DNA from: a virus
Direction: 5' to 3' (one strand)
Length of the DNA: 64,000 bases
Virus record (IMG/VR): IMGVR_UViG_3300025466_000019
Location: 24,349 to 88,348 of that record
Shown: positions 3,662-52,197 of the stretch, piece after piece
Layout of the letters: each line of letters begins with the position of its first letter
How positions within the stretch are numbered: position 1 is the stretch's first letter
Translations under genes and position numbers: made by a program
The notes under the pieces: model-generated
Told to the model about the DNA's origin: nothing
Database searches by the model: none
Seen by the model: only the letters and a program-made list of their open reading frames with translations

Positions 3662-4090
3662 CTAGAGTTTTTTAATAATATGTGAGCCGTGTACGCGAAC
3701 TCTTATCTGATTGTTGTAATAATCAGTTGATTCCAACACCTGATGTTCAAATTGCAGCTTTGCTTCCATGTAGGAGCATTCGGCCTTTGATTTACAAAAC
3801 AGTAATATTTCGCGTTTGAAATTTTCTTTGCCTAATTTTTCTATGTCTTGAGTGAGTTCTTTTGATGAGCCGTGATATGTTTGCCAGTCTGATTCTATGG
3901 TGCTTTTGATTTTTTTGCGCTTTTTTTTGCCATTTTTTAACTTGACCATTCTATATTTTGTTTTTGAAAATGCCGCGAGTTTTTTTCCAATATACTTTCT
4001 GCCAGAAATTAAATTTGTAATAAGATAAACAAATCCTGCACAATCTTGAGGAAGTTCTGTTATTTCCATTCCTTGATAATGCCATGACAT
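3662..4090 (-). CDS. GIY-YIG-type endonuclease
   Basis: 142 residues from ATG 4090, overlapping the glycosyltransferase stop (TGATG). GFVYLITN at 19-26 followed by GRKYIGKK at 30-37 is the GIY-YIG core in its variant form (VYL...YIG), and a conserved-looking Glu lies in YMEAKLQFEHQVL before a YYNN motif, as in this superfamily. A basic run (KNGKKKRKKIK) in the middle probably binds DNA. Small free-standing nucleases of this type in T4-like phages are homing endonucleases, which cut DNA of related phages lacking them. It is the last gene of the - strand unit and is followed by the structured non-coding stretch. Confidence 0.7.
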   Translation of the reverse strand: MSWHYQGMEITELPQDCAGFVYLITNLISGRKYIGKKLAAFSKTKYRMVKLKNGKKKRKKIKSTIESDWQTYHGSSKELTQDIEKLGKENFKREILLFCKSKAECSYMEAKLQFEHQVLESTDYYNNQIRVRVHGSHIIKKL

Positions 4091-5046
4091 CAATCTAAAA
4101 ATACCGATTTAAATTGACTCATAACAGTGTCTGGATTAAATTTGTCAACAATTTTTTTATATTCCCTGTTAAATGATTTTATATTAAGTATTTTTTCTTG
4201 CATATCCTGTTGATCGTTATATAGTAATCCTGTTCCTTGTAACATATTGATATGATTAAGATCAATGCCGTTGTTCCATGCCAACACCGGTTTATTGAAA
4301 TATAAAAATTCCGAGATAGCTAGACCAAAACTTTCTCCTATATATCTTGCATGGACCATTCCGTCGCAAGTATTAATAAAATTTGATTTAAATTGTAAAT
4401 CTTGAAAACCTGGAACATGAATGATATTAGGATGAGAATACCATTCTGCACAATTGCCCATGAGAAAAACAATTTCATCTGTTTTATTTAAAACATCAAT
4501 AATGGCTGTTCTAGCCCATTCCATCTGATGTCCAAAACCCCAGTAATCGCCTAATCTTCCGATTACAATTTTATTTTTAGGTATTCCAAAATAATCTCGT
4601 AAATCCTGTGTAGGTTCAGGCAGTTGCACAATATAGGGCACCCATGGTATTTTCCCATCACTACAGTAATTAGATAACCATTCTGAGATAAATGCATATT
4701 TTCCATGTCCATATGGATTTTTATTTTGAAATACAGCATGTACAGCTACCGAGGTGATATCGGGCAAGGGTTCAGGCCCTCCGTGTCTCATAAAATAGGC
4801 TAGATCGATATCTTTGCAAACTCCGTCATAATTGTTGTCATTGGATATAGTTCTTACTTCAAATTCTTTTTGAAATGACGAAATTATTTCAAAGCTATTG
4901 GTTTCATCCACGTTGCAAGGAATGTCTCTGTTATAACAAATTACACTTTCATTTCCTAAAATTTCCTGATTATAGCGTGCATAATCTCTTATAGCAACTG
5001 TACTTCCTCTTAAATTTAATTGATTGCAATAGAATAAAATTTTCAT
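4090..5046 (-). CDS. Glycosyltransferase, GT-B/GT4-like
   Basis: 318 residues. The N-terminus (MKILFYCNQLNLRGSTVAIRD) is the first strand and glycine loop of a GT-B nucleotide-sugar transferase, and the C-terminal half has the donor-site block with HARYIGESFGLAISEFLYF (the E-x7-E type motif) followed by KPVLAW. It should move a sugar from an activated donor to an acceptor that cannot be told from sequence: phage DNA, a virion protein or the host surface. AAGGA lies 6 bases before ATG 5046. It follows the methyltransferase by 9 bases, and the two probably act on the same substrate or were acquired as one cassette. Confidence 0.7.
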   Translation of the reverse strand: MKILFYCNQLNLRGSTVAIRDYARYNQEILGNESVICYNRDIPCNVDETNSFEIISSFQKEFEVRTISNDNNYDGVCKDIDLAYFMRHGGPEPLPDITSVAVHAVFQNKNPYGHGKYAFISEWLSNYCSDGKIPWVPYIVQLPEPTQDLRDYFGIPKNKIVIGRLGDYWGFGHQMEWARTAIIDVLNKTDEIVFLMGNCAEWYSHPNIIHVPGFQDLQFKSNFINTCDGMVHARYIGESFGLAISEFLYFNKPVLAWNNGIDLNHINMLQGTGLLYNDQQDMQEKILNIKSFNREYKKIVDKFNPDTVMSQFKSVFLD

Positions 5047-6053: not shown

Positions 6054-6303
6054 TTTTTTTCCTTTCTTTGATTTTTCTACGTTCAACTATTCTCTGTCTT
6101 TTTTCTTCTAGCATTTTGGTTCTAGTAATGGTACAATTTCTTCTCATTTCTGCAACTAATTTTTTAAGTCGTTTCATTACCTTGGTAATGCTTTCGGAAT
6201 TATAATAATTTGGTCTTCTAATAAATCTTAAATGAGCATTGTGATACTCGGCTAAAAGATCAATAAATTCTTTATGTAATTCTATGTACTTGTTTATCAT
6301 CAT
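5995..6303 (-). CDS. Small basic protein of unknown function
   Basis: 102 residues, starting at ATG 6303 or 6300, overlapping the gp46 stop. It begins with an amphipathic helix (YIELHKEFIDLLAEYHNAH), continues with a very basic region (MKRLKKLVAEMRR, KRQRIVERRKIKERKK) and ends in an Asn/Ile/Thr repeat. No family is recognised. High charge suggests nucleic acid binding. The placement right after gp46 and before the histone-like protein suggests joint expression with the recombination genes. Confidence 0.5.
   Translation of the reverse strand: MMINKYIELHKEFIDLLAEYHNAHLRFIRRPNYYNSESITKVMKRLKKLVAEMRRNCTITRTKMLEEKRQRIVERRKIKERKKNENTNINTNADINPGINNN
5999..6050. repeat. Imperfect GTTGRT hexamer repeat in an overlap of two genes
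   Basis: About eight imperfect copies of GTTGRT/GTCGGC. The repeat encodes the Asn-rich tail of the gene ending at 5995 and, in another frame, the Thr/Pro/Ser-rich start of the gene beginning at 6053. Confidence 0.6.
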
Positions 6304-8291
6304 GCATCAATCCAGTCGGCTGAATTTGAATAAGATGTAAATCCGGATTCTTTTACCACTCGTAGTACATTGTTTACTCTTCCGATCAATTCCTCTTTGT
6401 GTGAAATCAGGAAAATGTTTTTATTTCTTTCTCTGGCCATCTTTTTTAACACACTTAGCCCTGCTTCAACACCTGCGGAATCCATGCCAGAATCTATCAA
6501 CTCGTCAATAAACAGCAGATTGATGGGTTTATACAAGTTTTCCCAAACATCTCGAAAGGCAAAACTCATGCTCAATATCAGTCTGTTACGTTCGCCTCGT
6601 GAAAGATTATCAAAATCTAGATCTTGACCAAAATTGGTGATTTCAACCGATAAATCATTTTGAAAAACCACCATATGAGGTAATCCCAATTTGTCTATGT
6701 AATAGCTTAGTCGTTTGTTGAGATAATTTAAATTTTGATCGATGATCTTTTTGCGTATAAAACTTTCTTTATTGGTCAGCAGCTTCAATAGGAATTCTTG
6801 ATGTTCTTTTAAATTGTTTAATTCGTTGATCTTGTGCCATGCAATTTCCTGCAATGCGGTTTTTTCTAATTCTTCAATTTGTTCCTGATAGGGATTTTCA
6901 TCCTGTTTTCTGTCAATCAATGTTTTCTCTAAAGAGTTAACTTGACTTTTATGATTGAGTGCATCGGCCTGTGTGGGATAAAACACAGTGGGCTTGTTGC
7001 CAATCTCGCCCACACCGTGAATCTGATCCACTACATTTTGCAATGTTTGATACACAGCATCATAATAATCTGTGGCATCTTTTAGATTGTGTTCAGCGTC
7101 ATGCACCAAGTTGGTATGCTTGTGATCCTGAAGAGTCTGTTCACACTGAGGACATTTTCGATCCGCCAATGCTGCAATTTCTCTTTGATATTTTTTAACC
7201 GACTTGTCCGCCTGTGACAATGCAGACTCGTAACTGATTTTTTGTCTGCGTAAATCCGTCAGCTGGTTATTTTTTTCCTGCCACAGAGCGAGGCCGGCAT
7301 GATCGCTCAATTCCTGTTCAATGTCAATGGCTTGCAAGGTCACGATGGCATCACTGAGATCTTGTAAATCGGAGGTCTTTTTATTTTCCCATGCGGTACT
7401 TTTTAGTATCAAAGAATTGATACTGCGTTGCACACTTTCGTTGGCTGTTTTTATGCTTTCAATTTTAATCTGTTCGGTTTGTATAGAATCCTTAGAAGAT
7501 TTAATCAACAGTTTGAGTGTTTCGGCCTTTTCACTCAGCAAAGTGATGCCCAGCAGTTGTTCAATCACTTCTCGTTGATCCGCAGCCTTCATGGAAAGAA
7601 AAGGTTCGGTATATGTGTTCAAGGCTACTAGATGTTTGAACATGGTATGACTCATGCCCAACTTGTGTTCTATGAATTTTTGCGTTTCTCTGCTGTCGCC
7701 CTGCGCATCATCGTCCTTGCTTTCATGCTCGTGATTATTGATGAAAACCTTGAGCACGTTTGGTTTTCGACCTCGTTCAATGCGTATAAGTTCGCCGTCA
7801 TTTTCAAACTCGCCGGTGACCAACATGTTCTTGCCGTTGATTTTGTTGATCAAGTTTTCTTTCTTGATATTGGACAACGCCTGCCCAAACCACAGATAGG
7901 ACAATGAATTAATAATGGTCGTGTTGTGTGATAATATGCCGTTGGTATAGTATCTGTGATCTGCCGAATCTACTGTGATATCAAACATGTTTTCTGTTCT
8001 ATCGGACACAGACAGCGAGGTAACTAGTTCTGGACCATGCTGGGTCTGCACATATGAGCTTGGTTTGATATGCTTGACGAATTTTTCGTTGAGCTTTTCA
8101 TCAAACAAGATATGATCATCTGCGCACTCAAGCATTTTTCCGGATTCTGTTTGAATAGTCCAAACTTGATATGGCACAGTTTTCATTATTTTAGAAATGG
8201 GTTTCCACCCAGAATCTGTTTCTATCTCAAGATTCTGCAAATCCACACTGTCGACAAATTTTCTGTTCACTGTGTCAGAAATTGAATGCAT
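6300..8291 (-). CDS. 46: gp46 recombination ATPase, C-terminal part preceded by intein C-half
   Basis: 663 residues. Residues 1-123 are the C-half of a split intein: block B is GKMLECADDHILF near 51-63 (His60), block F MFDITVDSADHRYY near 102-115, and it ends in NGILSHN with the splice junction after Asn123 (base 7923). Residues 124-663 are the SbcC/Rad50-like gp46: they begin TTIINSLSYLWFG, which completes the P-loop, carry a coiled coil with the zinc hook CPQC, the ABC signature LSRGERNR, Walker B NLLFIDEL and the switch ISHKEE. Joined to the N-fragment at 9608 this gives a 593-residue gp46, which with gp47 resects DNA ends for recombination-dependent replication. The ATG at 8291 lies inside the end of the endonuclease gene and is in the same frame as the N-fragment. 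Confidence 0.9.
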   Translation of the reverse strand: MHSISDTVNRKFVDSVDLQNLEIETDSGWKPISKIMKTVPYQVWTIQTESGKMLECADDHILFDEKLNEKFVKHIKPSSYVQTQHGPELVTSLSVSDRTENMFDITVDSADHRYYTNGILSHNTTIINSLSYLWFGQALSNIKKENLINKINGKNMLVTGEFENDGELIRIERGRKPNVLKVFINNHEHESKDDDAQGDSRETQKFIEHKLGMSHTMFKHLVALNTYTEPFLSMKAADQREVIEQLLGITLLSEKAETLKLLIKSSKDSIQTEQIKIESIKTANESVQRSINSLILKSTAWENKKTSDLQDLSDAIVTLQAIDIEQELSDHAGLALWQEKNNQLTDLRRQKISYESALSQADKSVKKYQREIAALADRKCPQCEQTLQDHKHTNLVHDAEHNLKDATDYYDAVYQTLQNVVDQIHGVGEIGNKPTVFYPTQADALNHKSQVNSLEKTLIDRKQDENPYQEQIEELEKTALQEIAWHKINELNNLKEHQEFLLKLLTNKESFIRKKIIDQNLNYLNKRLSYYIDKLGLPHMVVFQNDLSVEITNFGQDLDFDNLSRGERNRLILSMSFAFRDVWENLYKPINLLFIDELIDSGMDSAGVEAGLSVLKKMARERNKNIFLISHKEELIGRVNNVLRVVKESGFTSYSNSADWIDA

Positions 8292-9367
8292 TTTTCTATG
8301 GTTCCTGTCTTATCTTTTTTGAAATCTGATTCCCATACCACTAATACTTCATAGCCTTGATCAAAGGCGACCTTTAATTTTATACGGTCGATCTCCCATC
8401 TGTCAATGGCTTTGATTTTTGTTCTTGGATTTATATGTTCTGATGAATATTTCTTTGGGTTACTGTGCCAAAAATCGCCATTATATTCAATAATTTTTTT
8501 GCCAACATTTATGTCATAGACATATTGCTTTTTATCTGACTTATTCAATGTGAATTGATGTTCTACTGATGGAAATATTTTCTTTACTTCAGCAAGGATT
8601 ATTTTTTCAGCAGCAGAGACAGTGATTCCTTTTGATAATTTCAATCGATTAATTCTAGCTTTCTCTTCTGGTAATTTAGCACTTAATGTTGCTTGCCACT
8701 TATCCTGTCTCGCTTGCCAAATTGATATTCCGTTTTCTTCTCCATATTTTTGTACACAGATATCTTTGGAAAAATATTTTTGATTCTCTGATACCAGCTC
8801 TTTTGCTTCATCAATGGAATATCCTCTAGCAGTGTAGTATTCTTCACATCTTTTCGATGTTGCTCTTCGGATATGTTTATCCATCCCAATTTTAGCACCT
8901 TTTTTATTATTTTTTTGTTTGGTATCCGATGCTAACTGTGCGGCATCTATTTCAGAGTAACCCTGTTTGATCCAATACTCTGCTCTAATGGGTCTACGAC
9001 TATTACGTTCAAAATCTGCTTCATCTACCGTATAGTTTGTTCCAGTGACTGGATTGATTTTTTCCAACCAAGTTTTGCGACTGTACACACTTTTACAGTT
9101 TTTTTGTTTGTTTTCTTTGGATTTGATGTGAGATTCTGCATCAGTCCATCCTCGAGACAGCCAGTATACTTTGGTATGTTTTGATAGTGTTGTGGTTAGA
9201 TTCAATTTGCTTCTCAAAAACTTTTCAATGATCTTTTTATTATTTTCAATATTAGATTCTAATAGTTCGTGTAGAAGATTCTGATACAGATCAGATTTGA
9301 GATTTTTAATAGTATTATTCAAGATATCTTTGCAGTTATTTTCTAGACTGTTGTTCCAACGCGGCAT
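8267..9367 (-). CDS. Vsr-like (EDxHD family) homing endonuclease between split-intein halves
   Basis: 366 residues in a different frame from gp46; its ATG (GGGAG 9 bases upstream) lies in the intein N-half gene and its stop lies in the intein C-half gene. Three copies of a helical repeat are visible: YWLSRGWTDAESHI, YWIKQGYSEIDAAQL and YYTARGYSIDEAKEL, of the type that precedes the nuclease in this family. The C-terminal 110 residues are Vsr-like: YVYDI, KIIEYNGDFWHSNP, IDRWEIDR and VLVVWESDF supply the Asp/Glu/His residues. The protein should cut intein-less gp46 genes and so spread the whole element. This is the arrangement known from metagenomic 'fractured genes' with split inteins. Confidence 0.85.
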   Translation of the reverse strand: MPRWNNSLENNCKDILNNTIKNLKSDLYQNLLHELLESNIENNKKIIEKFLRSKLNLTTTLSKHTKVYWLSRGWTDAESHIKSKENKQKNCKSVYSRKTWLEKINPVTGTNYTVDEADFERNSRRPIRAEYWIKQGYSEIDAAQLASDTKQKNNKKGAKIGMDKHIRRATSKRCEEYYTARGYSIDEAKELVSENQKYFSKDICVQKYGEENGISIWQARQDKWQATLSAKLPEEKARINRLKLSKGITVSAAEKIILAEVKKIFPSVEHQFTLNKSDKKQYVYDINVGKKIIEYNGDFWHSNPKKYSSEHINPRTKIKAIDRWEIDRIKLKVAFDQGYEVLVVWESDFKKDKTGTIEKCIQFLTQ

Positions 9368-9608
9368 TGTATAATTCTCCCATGGTCAGTTGGGTTATTT
9401 CACCAGTTACAGTGTTCCTAACCTTTACTAATGTATTTATACAAACACACTTGCCAGTGCCATTCCTGCTGCCGGTATCGTCGCCGCCTAGATCGAGATT
9501 GGCACCCAGCACCAAGGTCAGCATTTCTTTGCTGAAATCCACAGCCTGAGTCTGTTGACCCACGCTCATAAAATTCTTTACAGTCAAATTTTTGATTTTC
9601 AAGGTCAT
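9336..9608 (-). CDS. 46: gp46 N-terminal fragment fused to intein N-half
   Basis: 90 residues. Residues 1-53 are the start of gp46 (LKIKNLTVKNFMSVG, then the phage-type loop GANLDLGGDD and P-loop residues NGTGK). Residue 54 is Cys, the first residue of an intein: CVCINTLVKV is block A, and only 37 intein residues follow before the stop at 9336. The other half is encoded at 8291-7923. Splicing in trans would join Lys53 to Thr-Thr and rebuild NGTGKTT, the Walker A motif, so no active gp46 can form without it. The ATG overlaps the gp47 stop (ATGA). The N-half is unusually short, resembling atypically split inteins such as AceL-TerL. Confidence 0.9.
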   Translation of the reverse strand: MTLKIKNLTVKNFMSVGQQTQAVDFSKEMLTLVLGANLDLGGDDTGSRNGTGKCVCINTLVKVRNTVTGEITQLTMGELYNAALEQQSRK

Positions 9609-10638: not shown

Positions 10639-10667
10639 ATATTAGCAAAGGACTGTGGACAAGTCAA
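10639..10667 (-). promoter_or_regulatory. Sigma70-type promoter for gp47-gp46
   Basis: TTGACT (10667-10662), 17-bp spacer, TAATAT (10644-10639) on the - strand, leaving a leader of roughly 14 bases with AAGGAG before gp47. The gp55 stop codon TGA is embedded in the -35 hexamer. Confidence 0.8.
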
Positions 10668-11575
10668 CTTTCTTCTTCATCAACAGGAGCATAGTCGCCT
10701 TCTTGGCTTTTTGGCATCCGAGTATTTTTGTAGATTTCAGCCTGTTTGGCCACTTCTTCGGCAAACTCCTGTTGAGTTTGTCTGGTCATGCTTGGAGTCA
10801 ATCCGTTGACTTCGAGCAAATCATCTCTGATAGTTTGATTCTTCTTTTCAATATTGAGCACTCTGGTAAACGAATTGGTTACCGCGGCGGTGTAATAGGC
10901 AAATGGATTTTCTGACTTTGATTCATCAAACTGTAGTCCAATTTGGCTCAATTGAAGTATGGCCTGTCCTCGCATTTCATCAACGTAGGTATATCCTCTC
11001 CAGTTGCTGCGTTGTGCATATCTTTCGCTGAGTTTAATGAACATTTTGCCTAGATTTTCTGTGATCCTGCCGTGATCTTTACAAAACTTGCCTTTTAAAA
11101 TATCACCCTTCCAGTGACTTAATCCCACACATTCCAATTGGTCTTTTTCGTTAAATTTGTAATGCTGAAAAGGTGGAAAATTTACCTTTTCGTGAGAGTC
11201 GGCCACTGTTTTAGTTGTCTTTTTCCTTCCAGGCGCTAACGGAATATGATCAAATGTCATCACACGTATGATGATATCTTGTTTGTTTATGGTTTTATAA
11301 TCTGGCGTACATTCGGCCAATTTAATTTTTTTATCACCAGTTGATCTTGCCTCAACAAAGGCGTTTAATCCTAGTCTTTTAGCTCTGGTTCTTTTGGCAT
11401 CCGCAATTGTGCGAATATTGATCTTGTCCAAACCGGTTAATATTATGTCGTATTGTCCATATTCGGGTTTTAAAAAACTAGAATATGAACATTTGCTTTT
11501 GTGTATTTCTGCTAGTAAATCTCTATTGTTTAAATATTTTACTTTTCTTCCTGTTGCATTTATTGTTGTTGTCAT
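10664..11575 (-). CDS. 55: gp55-like late-transcription sigma factor, extended N-terminus
   Basis: 303 residues from ATG 11575 (AGGAG 10-14 bases upstream); the frame continues to a TTG at 11617 but that would place the ribosome site inside the gene. The C-terminal half is the minimal region 2 sigma domain of gp55: ITENLGKMFIKLSERYA, YVDEMRGQAILQL and NPFAYYTAAVTNSF, then a basic helix (RVLNIEKKNQ). gp55 lets host RNA polymerase read TATAAATA late promoters together with the clamp gp45, also encoded here. T4 gp55 is 185 residues, so the first 150 (with DLLAEIHKSKCSYSSF) are an extra part of unknown role. A strong sigma70-type promoter precedes it. Confidence 0.85.
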   Translation of the reverse strand: MTTTINATGRKVKYLNNRDLLAEIHKSKCSYSSFLKPEYGQYDIILTGLDKINIRTIADAKRTRAKRLGLNAFVEARSTGDKKIKLAECTPDYKTINKQDIIIRVMTFDHIPLAPGRKKTTKTVADSHEKVNFPPFQHYKFNEKDQLECVGLSHWKGDILKGKFCKDHGRITENLGKMFIKLSERYAQRSNWRGYTYVDEMRGQAILQLSQIGLQFDESKSENPFAYYTAAVTNSFTRVLNIEKKNQTIRDDLLEVNGLTPSMTRQTQQEFAEEVAKQAEIYKNTRMPKSQEGDYAPVDEEES

Positions 11576-11599
11576 TGGCCCAGGTCTCCTATTATTTTT

Positions 11600-11628
11600 A
11601 ATATAACAAAAATACAATTAAATGTCAA
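11600..11628 (-). promoter_or_regulatory. Sigma70-type promoter for gp55
   Basis: TTGACA (11628-11623), 17-bp spacer, TATATT (11605-11600) on the - strand, about 18 bases of leader before ATG 11575. Early host-driven expression of the late sigma factor is expected. Confidence 0.82.
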
Positions 11629-12936: not shown

Positions 12937-15900
12937 ATGGCAGCACGTAAGTTTCCAACATCTGATCCGACCCGAGTATCTGGTTCAAAAGATATCCAAG
13001 ATAAAACTCCTAGTCCTGAAAAAATGCAGGCAAAAAAACAAACAGTCAACCAGTTTCGTAGACAGGCCAAAACAAATGTTCTCAACAACTACAGATCCTA
13101 TAATTATATTTTTACTCTGGCAGCGTTGGAAAAAAACGCATTAAATGATTCTTCACAATATAAAAATTCATCCAATTACTACGTGGTAGCCAAATCAGGA
13201 GGAAAAGGAACCAAAGGCATAACGAATACGCAACGCCCTAGTCCTACAGAATTAACCAAAGAAGAAAAAGCATTAAATCCACTGGAAAAAAATCTCGCTA
13301 GTCTGCGTAATAGAGTAAAGGATTCCGGTGTCTACCAGTTAAACAATCAATTGGTAGCTCAGTTTAATTCACAAAGTCCTGGAGCCAAAGATTTTTTTAT
13401 TAACAATGTCAAAATAGACACAGTTATGGGCGGAAGCAAAAATACCAGCATGTCTATTGCAACCAATTTTGATTTTGATATACTTGAGCCCTATAGCATG
13501 ACCGGTTTTTTAGAGGCATTACATGTTTCGGCTGTGGCTGCAGGATATGCCAGTTATGCAGAGGCCTGTTTTCTATTTAAAATAGAATTTGTAGGATATC
13601 CAGATGGAGATGGTTTGCCCGATCCAGTGTCAATACCCAATTCCAGCCGATATTTTGTAATAAGAATAACCGGAGTTGATATTACTGTAACAGAATCAGG
13701 AGCTTTATACAAATGCAAGGCTGTGTCAGTTGAACAAATTGCATTTGGCGAGGCCAATCAACTCAAAGATGATATTAAAATGTCGGGTACAAAGGTAGGA
13801 GACATATTATCTAATTTTATTAACGGAATAAACAATTCAAAAATAGATGATGCACAAACCACCAATCAGGACGAAGATAAGAATTTACATGACACCTACG
13901 AGATTTATTTTCCTCTAGTGACCGATACGGGTATAGATACTGCCTATCTTCAAAATCCATCGGGGTATGAGAAAAATGAAATTGCATCAAAAGAATTAAC
14001 AACACTATTAAAAAGTAATGAAAATTACGCATTTGCCACACCTGATAATAGCACTAGCACAACTGTGGTATCATACTCTCCCACGTCCAATGCAGTAAGT
14101 TTTTCAAAAGGACAAAATATACATGAATGTATAATTTCGGTAGTGAGAGATAGCAATTATACCAAAGATATTTTAAAAGGACTCAATGAGGGTAAGATTG
14201 CCGACTCCAAAGGCATGATCAAATATTTTATGGTACATGTAGAATTGGAATTTACCGGAAAATATAACAAAAATACAAATAGTCCGGTTTATAAATACCG
14301 ATATCTTGTAATTCCTTATCAAATACATCTAACAAGAATAAAGCCTAAACCTGATGGTATTATTGATACCACACAGTTAAAACTAAGTGCTCATCGTATC
14401 TATAATTATATATACACGGGAAAAAACGTTGATATATTAAATTTTCAATTACGTTTTAATAATTTATACTTCCAGGCCATTGCTAAGGTATTAGGAGATC
14501 AAACAACTTCTCCGGCCGCCGACAAATCTGTTCAACCTAGTAATCCAATATCTTCAAAATTTGGCCAAGGAACCACTGCCGCCCAAGCAAATAATTATAC
14601 TTTTGGAATTTCAAGAAAAATAACACCGGTAGATATAACCAAGCCTGTAGTGGATGGAACTCCAAACGCTGGTGTTCCTCAAGTTGATCCTTATGCAAGA
14701 TTGAGCAAAAACATGCATGAATCAATACTGGAAAATACAGATCAGTGCACAGCCGAAGTTGAAATCATTGGCGATCCTTACTACTTGGTCACAGGCGGGT
14801 CAGGCAATCAAAAATTAAAATTAAATTCGGACGGAACAGCCGGGGACGGCGAGGCTCCATACACAACATCGGATGTCAGTGTTGTGATGTTTTTTAAAAA
14901 CCCAGTTGATATAGATCCTGTTACTGGATTTGCCAATTTCAATAATGCCGTAGCAGAATACAGCGGAGTTTTTCAGGTAACTCAAGTTGAAAGCAAATTT
15001 AATGATGGACTTTTTACGCAAAAAATCAATTTAGTTAGAATTCCTGGGCAGGTAGAGGATGTTGATACAAGTAGCACGCCTTATGATCCAAATAACCCTG
15101 CTGTTTCGTCGCTTACTCCTGCATTTGTTCCGGTTCCGGATCCTTCAAAGGCCGCAGTTGAGCCCACAATTATTCCCGAAGCGACATCTCCTGCCGTACA
15201 AGAAAACTCGTCTAGAGCCAGTTATAATGCCTTGCTTGCATCTATCGCTAATGGTCTTCCTATAACAGGATTACCTGGCGATCTTTCAAATCTTGTTCCG
15301 GGATTTAATAATAATTTAGGATCTTTAAGCAATCTTGCGTCAATTGGTTCTTTAATAAATTCTGTAAAATCAAATATTGCAGGAGCTACCAATGCAGCAG
15401 GCGCATTAATTAATCAAGTGACCGGAAGTGCTGCACAAGGACTGAGTAATATCAGCACTGTGCTTAGATTGGCCAAATCTGGATTATCTGGCATATCAAT
15501 TAATTACAATAGTGCAGGTGGAAGTGTGGCTCAATTGAGCTTGTTGGGAAAATCAATAGGATTTTCCAATTCCACGCCTGATAATTTAGCAAGATCGATA
15601 TTATCATCAGGAGCCAAATTATCAAATGAAATTGGTTACACTGCTATGTCTGCTGTTAACAGACTTGAATCAAATTCAGCAGGCTTAATAAATGGAATAT
15701 CTGCCAAGATTGGCAATCTTCATGGTAACAGTGCCGCTTTGGGAATACAATTAGGAATCAATCCCAGTGTTTTAAGTGGATTGAGCATTAATTTACAATC
15801 CTCAATTTTGCATCGAATTTCGTCATTGGCCGCTACTGTTCCTAGAAATGTTGACTTAAACAACGAAATTAAAAATGGAATACTAATCGATAATCTTCCT

Positions 15901-50207: not shown

Positions 50208-50459
50208 CTATCGATGAAATCGACCTTTGCTATGATCAACCATTTTGTGCACTTCAGGACCCTGACTCACAAAGTCCATGCCGGCAGATCTACCTTCATA
50301 AATCCTGCCATTCCACGTCATGGGTAATTTAATAGTGTTATTGATAATAACCGTCATCTTATCTTGATGTTTAAAAAAGATAACTTCTGCATCAACAGCT
50401 TTTCCGTTCTTTTCCTGAGTAACTTTACAATTTTTGTCGTGCCGATAAGAATCCATCAT
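50208..50459 (-). CDS. Small protein after QueE, unknown function
   Basis: 83 residues from ATG 50459 overlapping the QueE stop (ATGATGG with TGA inside), with GGGGA upstream; ATG 50456 is equally possible. The sequence gives a small beta domain (CKVTQEKNGKAVDAEVIFFKHQDKMTVIINNTIKLPMTW). No family recognised. Overlap with queE suggests a linked role. Confidence 0.55.
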   Translation of the reverse strand: MMDSYRHDKNCKVTQEKNGKAVDAEVIFFKHQDKMTVIINNTIKLPMTWNGRIYEGRSAGMDFVSQGPEVHKMVDHSKGRFHR

Positions 50460-51328
50460 GTTCCCCAAGCATTTCCAAATAGATCGCATTGCAGTCTTGG
50501 ACTATAACGCCAGCCTTGACTCATGGCATATTCTGCCACTTGACGATTATTCATTTCATATGTTTCCACAGTTCCGCCTACTGGCATCAAGTAGACTGGG
50601 CACAAAACATCAGCTTGGCGATAAGCTTCCACAGCACGATTAACATCGACCAAATCATCAGTATTGGCAACAACAAACTTAAGATACAGATTGCTACCAC
50701 CATTAATAGATAAATCATAGTAAGATTTAACAACGTAAGGCTGAATCGCTTCCTCCCAATTCTCACCGCTAACCGTGAGTTTCGGGCTGCAGGACCAGGT
50801 GATGTGTAAATTGTTTCTTTGTTGTAGATAATCGGAAAAATCCTTGTGAAGCTTTTGAGTTGCATTTGTTTCAAATGTGAGATTTTTTAGATCTCGCATG
50901 CCTTCGTGTTCTAATAGGTCAATATAACTGCGTTGCCAGCCCAATAAAGGTTCGCCTCCGGTTATAACCAAGTGTATATCTTGACCGTTTGGTTGTGTCC
51001 ACTGATTATTTGGTATCAATTGTAATAAGCGTTCTACAATGGCGTCCGTATCATTTTTAATTGCAAATTTTTTAAATTCTGAATATACACTTGAATATGA
51101 ATCACATCCGGTTTTAACTAGCGGAAGATCATCAAATGTTTTATATTGATCAATATTTTCAATTATTTTCTCAACTTCAGGATTTTTATCTTGGATAACT
51201 TTTGAAGAACGACCAAATGATTTACATTTAAAATTGCAACCAAAGGTTCTAAAAAAAACACTAGGAATACCGGTCCATACTCCTTCACCTTGCAATGAAT
51301 AAAATGTCTCTGTATAATGTATTTTCAT
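50456..51328 (-). CDS. queE: QueE, 7-carboxy-7-deazaguanine synthase
   Basis: 290 residues from ATG 51328 (AAAAGG 6 bases upstream); the open frame is 13 codons longer without a site. YSLQGEGVWTGIPSVFFRTFGCNFKC is the QueE start. Cys31 and Cys35 form the first part of the iron-sulfur motif, and Cys75 (KTGCDS) is a likely third ligand after a 40-residue insert, an arrangement seen in phage and some bacterial QueE. VITGGEPLLGW near 133 is the SAM-binding block. The enzyme makes the 7-deazaguanine ring from carboxytetrahydropterin, here presumably for DNA modification with the DpdA-like protein at 56796. Confidence 0.85.
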   Translation of the reverse strand: MKIHYTETFYSLQGEGVWTGIPSVFFRTFGCNFKCKSFGRSSKVIQDKNPEVEKIIENIDQYKTFDDLPLVKTGCDSYSSVYSEFKKFAIKNDTDAIVERLLQLIPNNQWTQPNGQDIHLVITGGEPLLGWQRSYIDLLEHEGMRDLKNLTFETNATQKLHKDFSDYLQQRNNLHITWSCSPKLTVSGENWEEAIQPYVVKSYYDLSINGGSNLYLKFVVANTDDLVDVNRAVEAYRQADVLCPVYLMPVGGTVETYEMNNRQVAEYAMSQGWRYSPRLQCDLFGNAWGT

Positions 51329-52111: not shown

Positions 52112-52197
52112 TTTACTCCAGTAAAGTAGTAGAAGGCTATCTGTGTTACTGGTACAGAAGGATGATCAGTCCTTTCGCCTTCTACCACTTATTTATT
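52112..52197 (-). promoter_or_regulatory. Late motif plus three-way-junction leader of HNH gene
   Basis: On the - strand: AATAAATAA (52197-52189, inside the end of the HIT gene); a 12-bp stem of 52188-52177 with 52137-52126 (one G-U pair) enclosing two hairpins (AAGGA/TCCTT and TCTGT/ACAGA); then TTTACTGGAGTAAA (52125-52112), a small hairpin that holds the GGAG ribosome site. RNA made from upstream would hide the site; RNA made from the late motif begins at about the stem. The regulatory role is inferred. Confidence 0.55.

Follow-up and report, generated by a model that had tools for sequence, protein, structure and literature searches.

A portable structured leader RNA that probably limits translation of unrelated homing-endonuclease genes in uncultured phages

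The locus and its genes

The window analysed here is a stretch of 64,000 nucleotides forming part of a virus record of 88,348 bases (IMG/VR record IMGVR_UViG_3300025466_000019). On its minus strand lie, in order, folE, a phosphoribosyltransferase gene, a HIT gene, a structured leader (52190-52107), an HNH homing-endonuclease gene and a queE-like gene (Table 1). The closest match to its DNA polymerase, at 50% identity, comes from Phosso, a large Sinorhizobium phage, which would make the phage a distant, uncultured relative within the T4-like large phages. The window also carries a gene for a late sigma factor, and it contains no tRNA or tmRNA gene.

Other parts of the window hold further endonuclease-like genes. 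A SegE-type GIY-YIG endonuclease gene is found at 3662-4093 on the minus strand (PF19835, E 9.6e-35), and a gp46/SbcC-like gene is present in two halves (9336-9608, 8267-9367 and 6300-8291, all on the minus strand). The break falls at the Walker A motif and reads as a split intein (GTGK followed by CVCINT, and HN followed by TTIINS). An endonuclease-like ORF stands free between the two halves, preceded by TATAAATA at 9434-9441. Fractured genes that combine a split intein with an endonuclease ORF are already known.

Table 1. Genes and leader elements in the window, with their positions.
Feature	Position	Strand	Remarks
Late sigma factor gene (gp55-type)	10664-11617		phrog_12791, E 9.7e-87
queE-like gene	50456..51328	-	ATG reading MKIHYTE; phrog_2076, E 1.2e-46
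HNH homing-endonuclease gene, 257 aa	51333..52106	-	phrog_655, E 1.8e-34, residues 7-179
T4-type late box, AATAAATA (predicted)	52190..52197	-	within the last HIT codons
P1 5' arm, AAGTGGTAGAAGGC	52177..52190	-	part conserved in relatives: GGGC
HIT stop codon, TAG	52182..52184	-	within the P1 5' arm
Joining bases J12, GAAA in the window	52173..52176	-	GAAC in 25/26 distinct leaders
P2 hairpin, GGA-CTGATCA-TCC	52160..52172	-	loop contains the palindrome TGATCA
Joining bases J23, TT	52158..52159	-	required by the parser; 41/41 members parse
P3 hairpin, CTGT-ACCAGTAAC-ACAG	52141..52157	-	pairing
L3, CCAGTAA, kissing partner for L4	52146..52152	-	complementarity
Joining bases J31, ATA	52138..52140	-	required by the parser; 41/41 members parse
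P1 3' arm, GCCTTCTACTACTT	52124..52137	-	outer pairs compete with P4 in the window
P4 hairpin, TACT-TTACTGG-AGTA	52114..52128	-	structure-aware parser
L4, TTACTGG, pairs with L3	52118..52124	-	complementarity
Shine-Dalgarno, GGAG	52116..52119	-	GG within L4, AG within stem P4

Predicted fold of the leader in the window

A preliminary description of the locus had proposed a 12-bp stem enclosing two hairpins, then a small stem with GGAG at its centre, the whole separating HIT from the HNH gene and preceded by a late-type motif. The enclosing stem and its two hairpins are present, and simple pairing extends the stem to 14 bp (AAGTGGTAGAAGGC / GCCTTCTACTACTT). The small stem holding GGAG is also there, and helix P4 is its conserved form in relatives. 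The leader does lie upstream of the HNH gene, but the separation from HIT is not clean, the HIT stop codon falling inside the 5' arm of P1. The late-type motif, ATAAATA at 52196-52190 on the minus strand, stands just 5' of the structure as described, though it is also HIT coding sequence. Two things were missing from that description: the pairing between loops L3 and L4, which is the conserved part of the element, and its sharing among unrelated endonucleases.

For the minus-strand segment 52215-52080 the predicted folding energy is -30.7 kcal/mol (z -3.56), and the leader by itself has a z of -4.13; in neither case did any of 200 shuffles equal the value. The long P1 is a peculiarity of the window, P1 being 4-6 bp in the other members, and seven other leaders that we folded gave z values of -0.04 to -1.42, a stability that is not unusual by minimum free energy. 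The window departs from its relatives in further respects, with a P3 of 4 bp, an L3 loop of 9 nt and the competition between the outer pairs of P1 and P4. The strong evidence for structure is covariation rather than folding energy.

A family of leaders in front of homing-endonuclease genes

Close relatives of the HNH protein of the window number two, and both have a similar leader despite different upstream genes. IMG/VR was scanned with DNA patterns built on the leader alone and blind to the downstream gene; genuine stretches made up 15/15, 16/23, 16/19, 18/35 and 18/18 of the hits in the several scans. Together these scans yielded 36 genuine contigs, and an endonuclease-type ORF lay directly 3' in 36 of 36, counting one (L017) whose ORF runs off the contig. 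Using the endonuclease proteins as queries brought in four more contigs (L096, L168, L169 and L170), which with the window makes 41, and in all 41 the leader sits just 5' of a homing-endonuclease-type ORF. The 41 contigs are not independent, several being near-identical: 24 distinct leader sequences are found between P1 and the start codon, and adding the 14 nt upstream raises the number to 26. The search for the same structure elsewhere, proposed in the preliminary description for HNH genes of this family, thus found it both at phrog_655 HNH genes and at genes for unrelated endonucleases.

Members score at least 49.7 bits with model R1, and 62 pattern-picked loci outside the family (35 from genome_contigs and 27 viral) score at most 20.5 bits. 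Among 38 whole records the model found one copy each in 24 and none in 14, and it found one copy apiece in 17 further member records. At 77 loci carrying more distant relatives of the endonucleases no credible match was seen (three partial matches, E 1.4), and none of 35 pattern stretches in bacterial genomes (genome_contigs) looked genuine. Among cultured phages, four leader regions compared by blastn with 50,697 records had no genuine match, and the model reached at most 14.3 bits in five whole records. Acinetobacter phage Acj61 has one match of 26 nt, which is inside a coding gene and was judged to be due to chance. No family of Rfam 15 matches the window, and the leaders of the window, L003, L217 and L024 all fall under every Rfam cut-off in E-value mode.

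The leader precedes endonuclease genes of at least three unrelated types, and probably of five, and the insertion sites are of five kinds. Three of the types are defined by profile match (phrog_655, phrog_12324 and phrog_374), and the other two by NUMOD3 together with our reading of the proteins. A phrog_655-type HNH protein is encoded downstream in 11 members and is followed by queE in 10 of them, the eleventh (L017) being cut off; the queE-like gene 3' of the HNH gene in the window is thus at the usual site for this type. The HNH_3 / phrog_12324 type follows the leader in 17 members (profile run on two representatives), with a DNA polymerase gene directly after it in 17/17, as read from the protein start. 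In 10 members the downstream ORF encodes a NUMOD3 protein, and all 10 lie after gp46 (L008 and L170 tested). We read these gp46-site proteins as GIY-YIG enzymes; of those tested, only that of L170 matched SegE, and weakly, and the L008 protein also matches the C-terminal part of phrog_655. A different NUMOD3 protein, likewise read as GIY-YIG, lies downstream in L222, and L010 and L024 carry phrog_374 HNH proteins followed by a gene read as a terminase. As the first relatives found all had queE, a queE riboswitch was considered, and it was rejected on finding the same leader at gp46, DNA polymerase and other sites.

Relatives of these endonucleases without the leader exist, indicating that the leader is not needed for endonuclease persistence. 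Such leaderless copies belong to the same gene families and share some of the sites, as in L260, where a related endonuclease lies after gp46 and its start overlaps the gp46 stop (ATGA). In the pairs L005/L236 and L081/L250, a fragment of the 5' end of queE lies upstream of the leader-HNH unit and a full queE lies downstream, the arrangement to be expected had the unit inserted into queE and the queE 5' end been restored afterwards.

A conserved three-way junction

All 41 leaders parse to a common plan, P1, GAAC, P2, UU, P3, AUA, P1, linker, P4, with a parser that demanded UU and AUA. P1 is GGGC/GCCC and variants thereof; P2 occurs as GGA/UCC, GGG/CCC, AGG/CCU and GGG/CCU; and P3 as CUGUG/CACAG, CUAUG/CAUAG, CCUUG/CAAGG and others. 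In alignment A5 (17 rows), P1-P3 pair in 98.5% of cells, and 6 of the 12 base pairs have changed on both sides. None of 500 shuffles reached this degree of pairing, and slid versions attained at most 62.8%. P2 was counted on A5 only, being out of register in alignment A6. The joining bases are near-invariant, whereas the helices around them vary by compensation.

Loop L2 (52163-52169 in the window) has a feature of its own. It contains a 6-nt palindrome in 33/41 members and a 4-nt palindrome in all 41, against 3% and 23%, respectively, of random 7-mers, and the centres of the palindromes differ (GAUC, AGCU and AAUU). A kissing dimer through L2 is possible.

Pairing between L3 and the ribosome-binding site

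L3 is complementary to L4 and the Shine-Dalgarno strand over 6-7 nt in every member. The complementarity spans the full loop in 40/41, and in the window 7 of the 9 loop bases pair. Loop lengths match as well, at 6/6 in 29 members and 7/7 in 11, the window being the sole exception. Seven loop pairs were found, co-varying in sequence and length: CCAGUAA/UUACUGG, CCAGUA/UACUGG, CCAAUA/UAUUGG, CCGAAU/AUUCGG, CCGAUU/AAUCGG, CCGUAAU/AUUACGG and CUCUAC/GUAGAG. In alignment A6 (22 rows), 132/132 loop-pair cells are paired, with both sides changed in 33, and sliding the partners by 1-3 columns lowers pairing to 20.5-43.9%; the pair of columns 37-60 is the true sixth partner only for 6-nt loops, with A-U there in 7-nt loops too. 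A6 leaves out L010 and L024, which have a different tail length and are included in the parsing, late-box and P4 counts. Of the 720 possible assignments among six loop classes, only the true one attains the observed sum.

P4 is 4 bp long in 23 of the 24 distinct leaders and 3 bp in the other, as counted by the structure-aware parser, since A6 misregisters 6-nt against 7-nt loops (50% of cells); shuffled flanks give a P4 of at least 4 bp in 2%. Its versions include UACU/AGUA, UAUU/AAUA, AUCU/AGAU and CUC/GAG, plus G-U variants. The GGAG is divided between the two elements, its GG falling within the loop-loop helix and its AG within P4, and in L024, where the register is shifted, the last loop bases and the 3' strand of P4 read GAGGAG. 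L010 and L024 do not differ in the upstream sequence or in the leader as far as CUG, the P3 5' strand; beyond it they diverge in P3, L3 and L4, always with matched changes.

The preliminary description had held that the fold could sequester a Shine-Dalgarno sequence ahead of a homing endonuclease, and it had named in advance a lack of compensatory changes in relatives as telling against it. Such changes are present throughout P1-P4 and L3-L4, and pairing and covariation together point to a structure that would be able to hide the ribosome-binding site. By our estimates the energy of the loop pair is close to that of Shine-Dalgarno-anti-Shine-Dalgarno pairing in 4/6 classes, so that repression could be partial.

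The late box and the predicted transcription start

A TAAATA box is present in 39/41 members, L010 and L024 being without it, and it lies 5 nt before the GGGC of P1 (6 nt before the core GGC/GGT) in 35/41; four members, the window among them, have another spacing. The box corresponds to the NATAAATA box of T4-type late promoters. The T4 late promoter consensus is described in PMC2984593 and PMC2988020, and the latter places the box at -13 to -6, the lower limit following from its 8-bp length. By analogy, late transcription in the 35 members with standard spacing is predicted to begin with the first G of P1, and late RNA starting there would retain the lock. In the window the start is predicted within the P1 5' arm, and about 8 bp of P1 would remain, together with P2, P3 and P4.

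The frequency of the box in these members, and the late sigma gene in the window, support the T4-type late promoter that had been proposed earlier. ATAAATA is depleted in the window (13 copies on both strands, against 35 expected), and 9 of the 13, that of the leader among them, lie at most 100 nt before a listed gene start on the same strand. At the gp46 site, the end of gp46 itself completes the box (...CATAA followed by ATA), and a record of this site without the insertion reads CATAAAAATATGAG. Recurrence at a fixed spacing in different surroundings argues that the late box is under selection.

Exchange of the leader as a module

Two comparisons bear on how the leader came to stand before different genes. 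The leaders of L217 (HNH_3) and L222 (NUMOD3) are 99% identical and those of L002 (HNH) and L008 (NUMOD3) 97% identical, and the identity of the first 300 nt of the ORFs is 0.62 in the former pair and that of the ORF starts 0.61 in the latter. The upstream flanks stand at 0.64 (L217/L222) and 0.58 (L002/L008), and shuffled sequence gives 0.61. Leader identity ends at the start codon. These comparisons show the predicted promoter, the junction and the putative lock to have moved together, as a single unit, among endonuclease genes that are not related to one another.

Proposed function and alternatives

The element, about 75-85 nt in length, is in our view likely to be a portable 5' leader RNA holding homing-endonuclease translation low. 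We infer both that translation is repressed by it in the phage and that the late box is in use. Transcription would start at the adjoining upstream late box or read through from the preceding gene, and the leader RNA would fold into the three-way junction of P1, P2 and P3, followed by the P4 hairpin. L3 and L4 would then pair over 6-7 nt, taking GG into the loop-loop helix and AG into P4, and a 30S subunit would have to open this lock prior to initiation. Whether the RNA came from read-through or from the late start, the lock would limit how much endonuclease is made. Too much of an enzyme that cuts phage DNA may be costly, in which case such a limit would suit both parties.

It is conceivable, and we would entertain it tentatively, that the leader is a true switch, its junction binding a small molecule, or else a protein of the phage or the host, and thereby opening or closing the L3-L4 lock, so that the endonuclease would be made under one infection condition only. 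The near-invariance of the joining bases (GAAC in 25/26) while the helices compensate would suit a binding site, the presence of one leader at unrelated endonucleases implies that any signal could not be one enzyme's own target, and T4 gene 32 offers the example of a protein-controlled leader pseudoknot (PMC3014915). However, nothing points to a ligand or a binding protein, none of the riboswitch classes in Rfam matches at cut-off, and an invariant junction may equally be a static tertiary core. We regard as speculative and rather doubtful the wider notion of an RNA sensor plugged into unrelated selfish endonucleases, in which the junction would read an infection signal and unlock translation. 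A ligand, a protein, or L2 dimerisation reporting mRNA abundance could serve as that signal.

Protection or maturation of the 5' end of late mRNA might be the chief role of the leader, with the pairing of the ribosome site secondary. A predicted start at the first G of P1 would accord with this, and the freshwater-2 leader (RF02980) in the same phages also directly follows a TAAATA box. Protection would require P1 alone, however, leaving the covariation of L3 with the Shine-Dalgarno strand in sequence and length unexplained, and we think this role unlikely to be the main one. A link to RegB, which cuts GGAG, was also considered; REGB_T4 had no match in 17 records, control genomes being equally silent.

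The preliminary description followed the T4 logic, by which read-through RNA is blocked and late RNA, beginning inside the structure, escapes it. That part of its claim is not supported: the late box stands 5' of the entire structure, and the lock would be kept. The box does adjoin the structure, and in the window a start inside the P1 5' arm would shorten P1 from 14 to about 8 bp. Nevertheless, the spacing in 35/41 members makes the first base of P1 the predicted start, and L3 and L4 are downstream of any such start, making a temporal bypass very improbable. Melting of P1 by a ribosome finishing the upstream gene would hardly be a general rule, the upstream stop codons that were found lying 5 to 57 nt before the core, which is too variable.

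There is even less to recommend a feature acting at the DNA level, such as a sequence used in recombination or homing, or a palindrome bound by a protein, kept for endonuclease mobility; exchange of the module between genes and the L2 palindrome in 33/41 members would agree with it, but the compensation in four helices and a loop-loop helix fits pairing within one strand, and orientation and distance to the start codon are fixed. A chance fold, or a HIT terminator such as the overlap with the HIT stop codon might suggest, is ruled out by the relatives, the stem having no T-run after it and the element standing behind many other genes with its covariation intact.

Comparison with known systems

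The open-access literature that we searched contains the T4 precedents and yielded no report of this element among the papers listed, and the structured-RNA discovery papers PMC2864571 and PMC8040213 make no mention of HNH, GIY-YIG or homing endonucleases. Leaders that sequester the Shine-Dalgarno sequence of phage endonucleases are known, while a shared, exchangeable family with a loop-loop lock would appear to be absent from the literature searched. As far as the Rfam library shows, the leader is a new structured RNA family, and possibly a phage sensor.

Of known elements, freshwater-2 resembles the leader in being a cis-regulatory leader of the same phages, with TAAATA directly 5' and its end at the start codon. 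It differs in structure and sequence, and precedes MGRP... genes rather than endonucleases. Among the four members scanned, only L024 registered with freshwater-2, at 16.1 bits against a cut-off of 49.9. Freshwater-2 itself was above cut-off in 3/15 records, and scored 41.6 bits in G000 (14816-14889, minus strand, outside the window); at six loci that were read (L267-L272) a TAAATA box comes before it and a structural-looking gene, reading MGRP..., comes after it. T4 gene 32 presents another likeness, a pseudoknotted phage leader tied to translational control (PMC3014915). In gene 32, the pseudoknot is an autogenous gp32 operator upstream of the ribosome site, whereas here the ribosome-site hairpin would itself be one pairing partner and the downstream proteins are mutually unrelated.

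The closest precedents are the T4-family endonucleases with leaders that sequester the Shine-Dalgarno sequence (I-TevI, I-TevII, I-TevIII, segB and Aeh1 mobE), in which RNA structure blocks early translation, as described in PMC2988022. With the I-TevI/mobE scheme the present leader shares a homing endonuclease downstream and, by pairing and covariation, a ribosome-binding site lying in RNA structure. It does not share a late promoter positioned to prevent the structure in late RNA: I-TevI late transcripts, according to the same source, are too short to form the inhibitory structure, whereas here the predicted promoter lies upstream of everything. The leader also differs from the T4 cases in sequence, and the suggestion that it is a separate case is borne out. 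The earlier structured endonuclease leaders are separate cases, each reported for a gene of its own, whereas the leader described here, a single three-way junction conserved in sequence and equipped with a loop-loop lock, is common to unrelated endonucleases, and covariation defines the lock to the base-pair level. Exchange of one RNA family among endonuclease types would mean that the control of selfish genes is itself mobile and shared and, if the sensor reading were true, that a riboswitch-like device has been moving between them.
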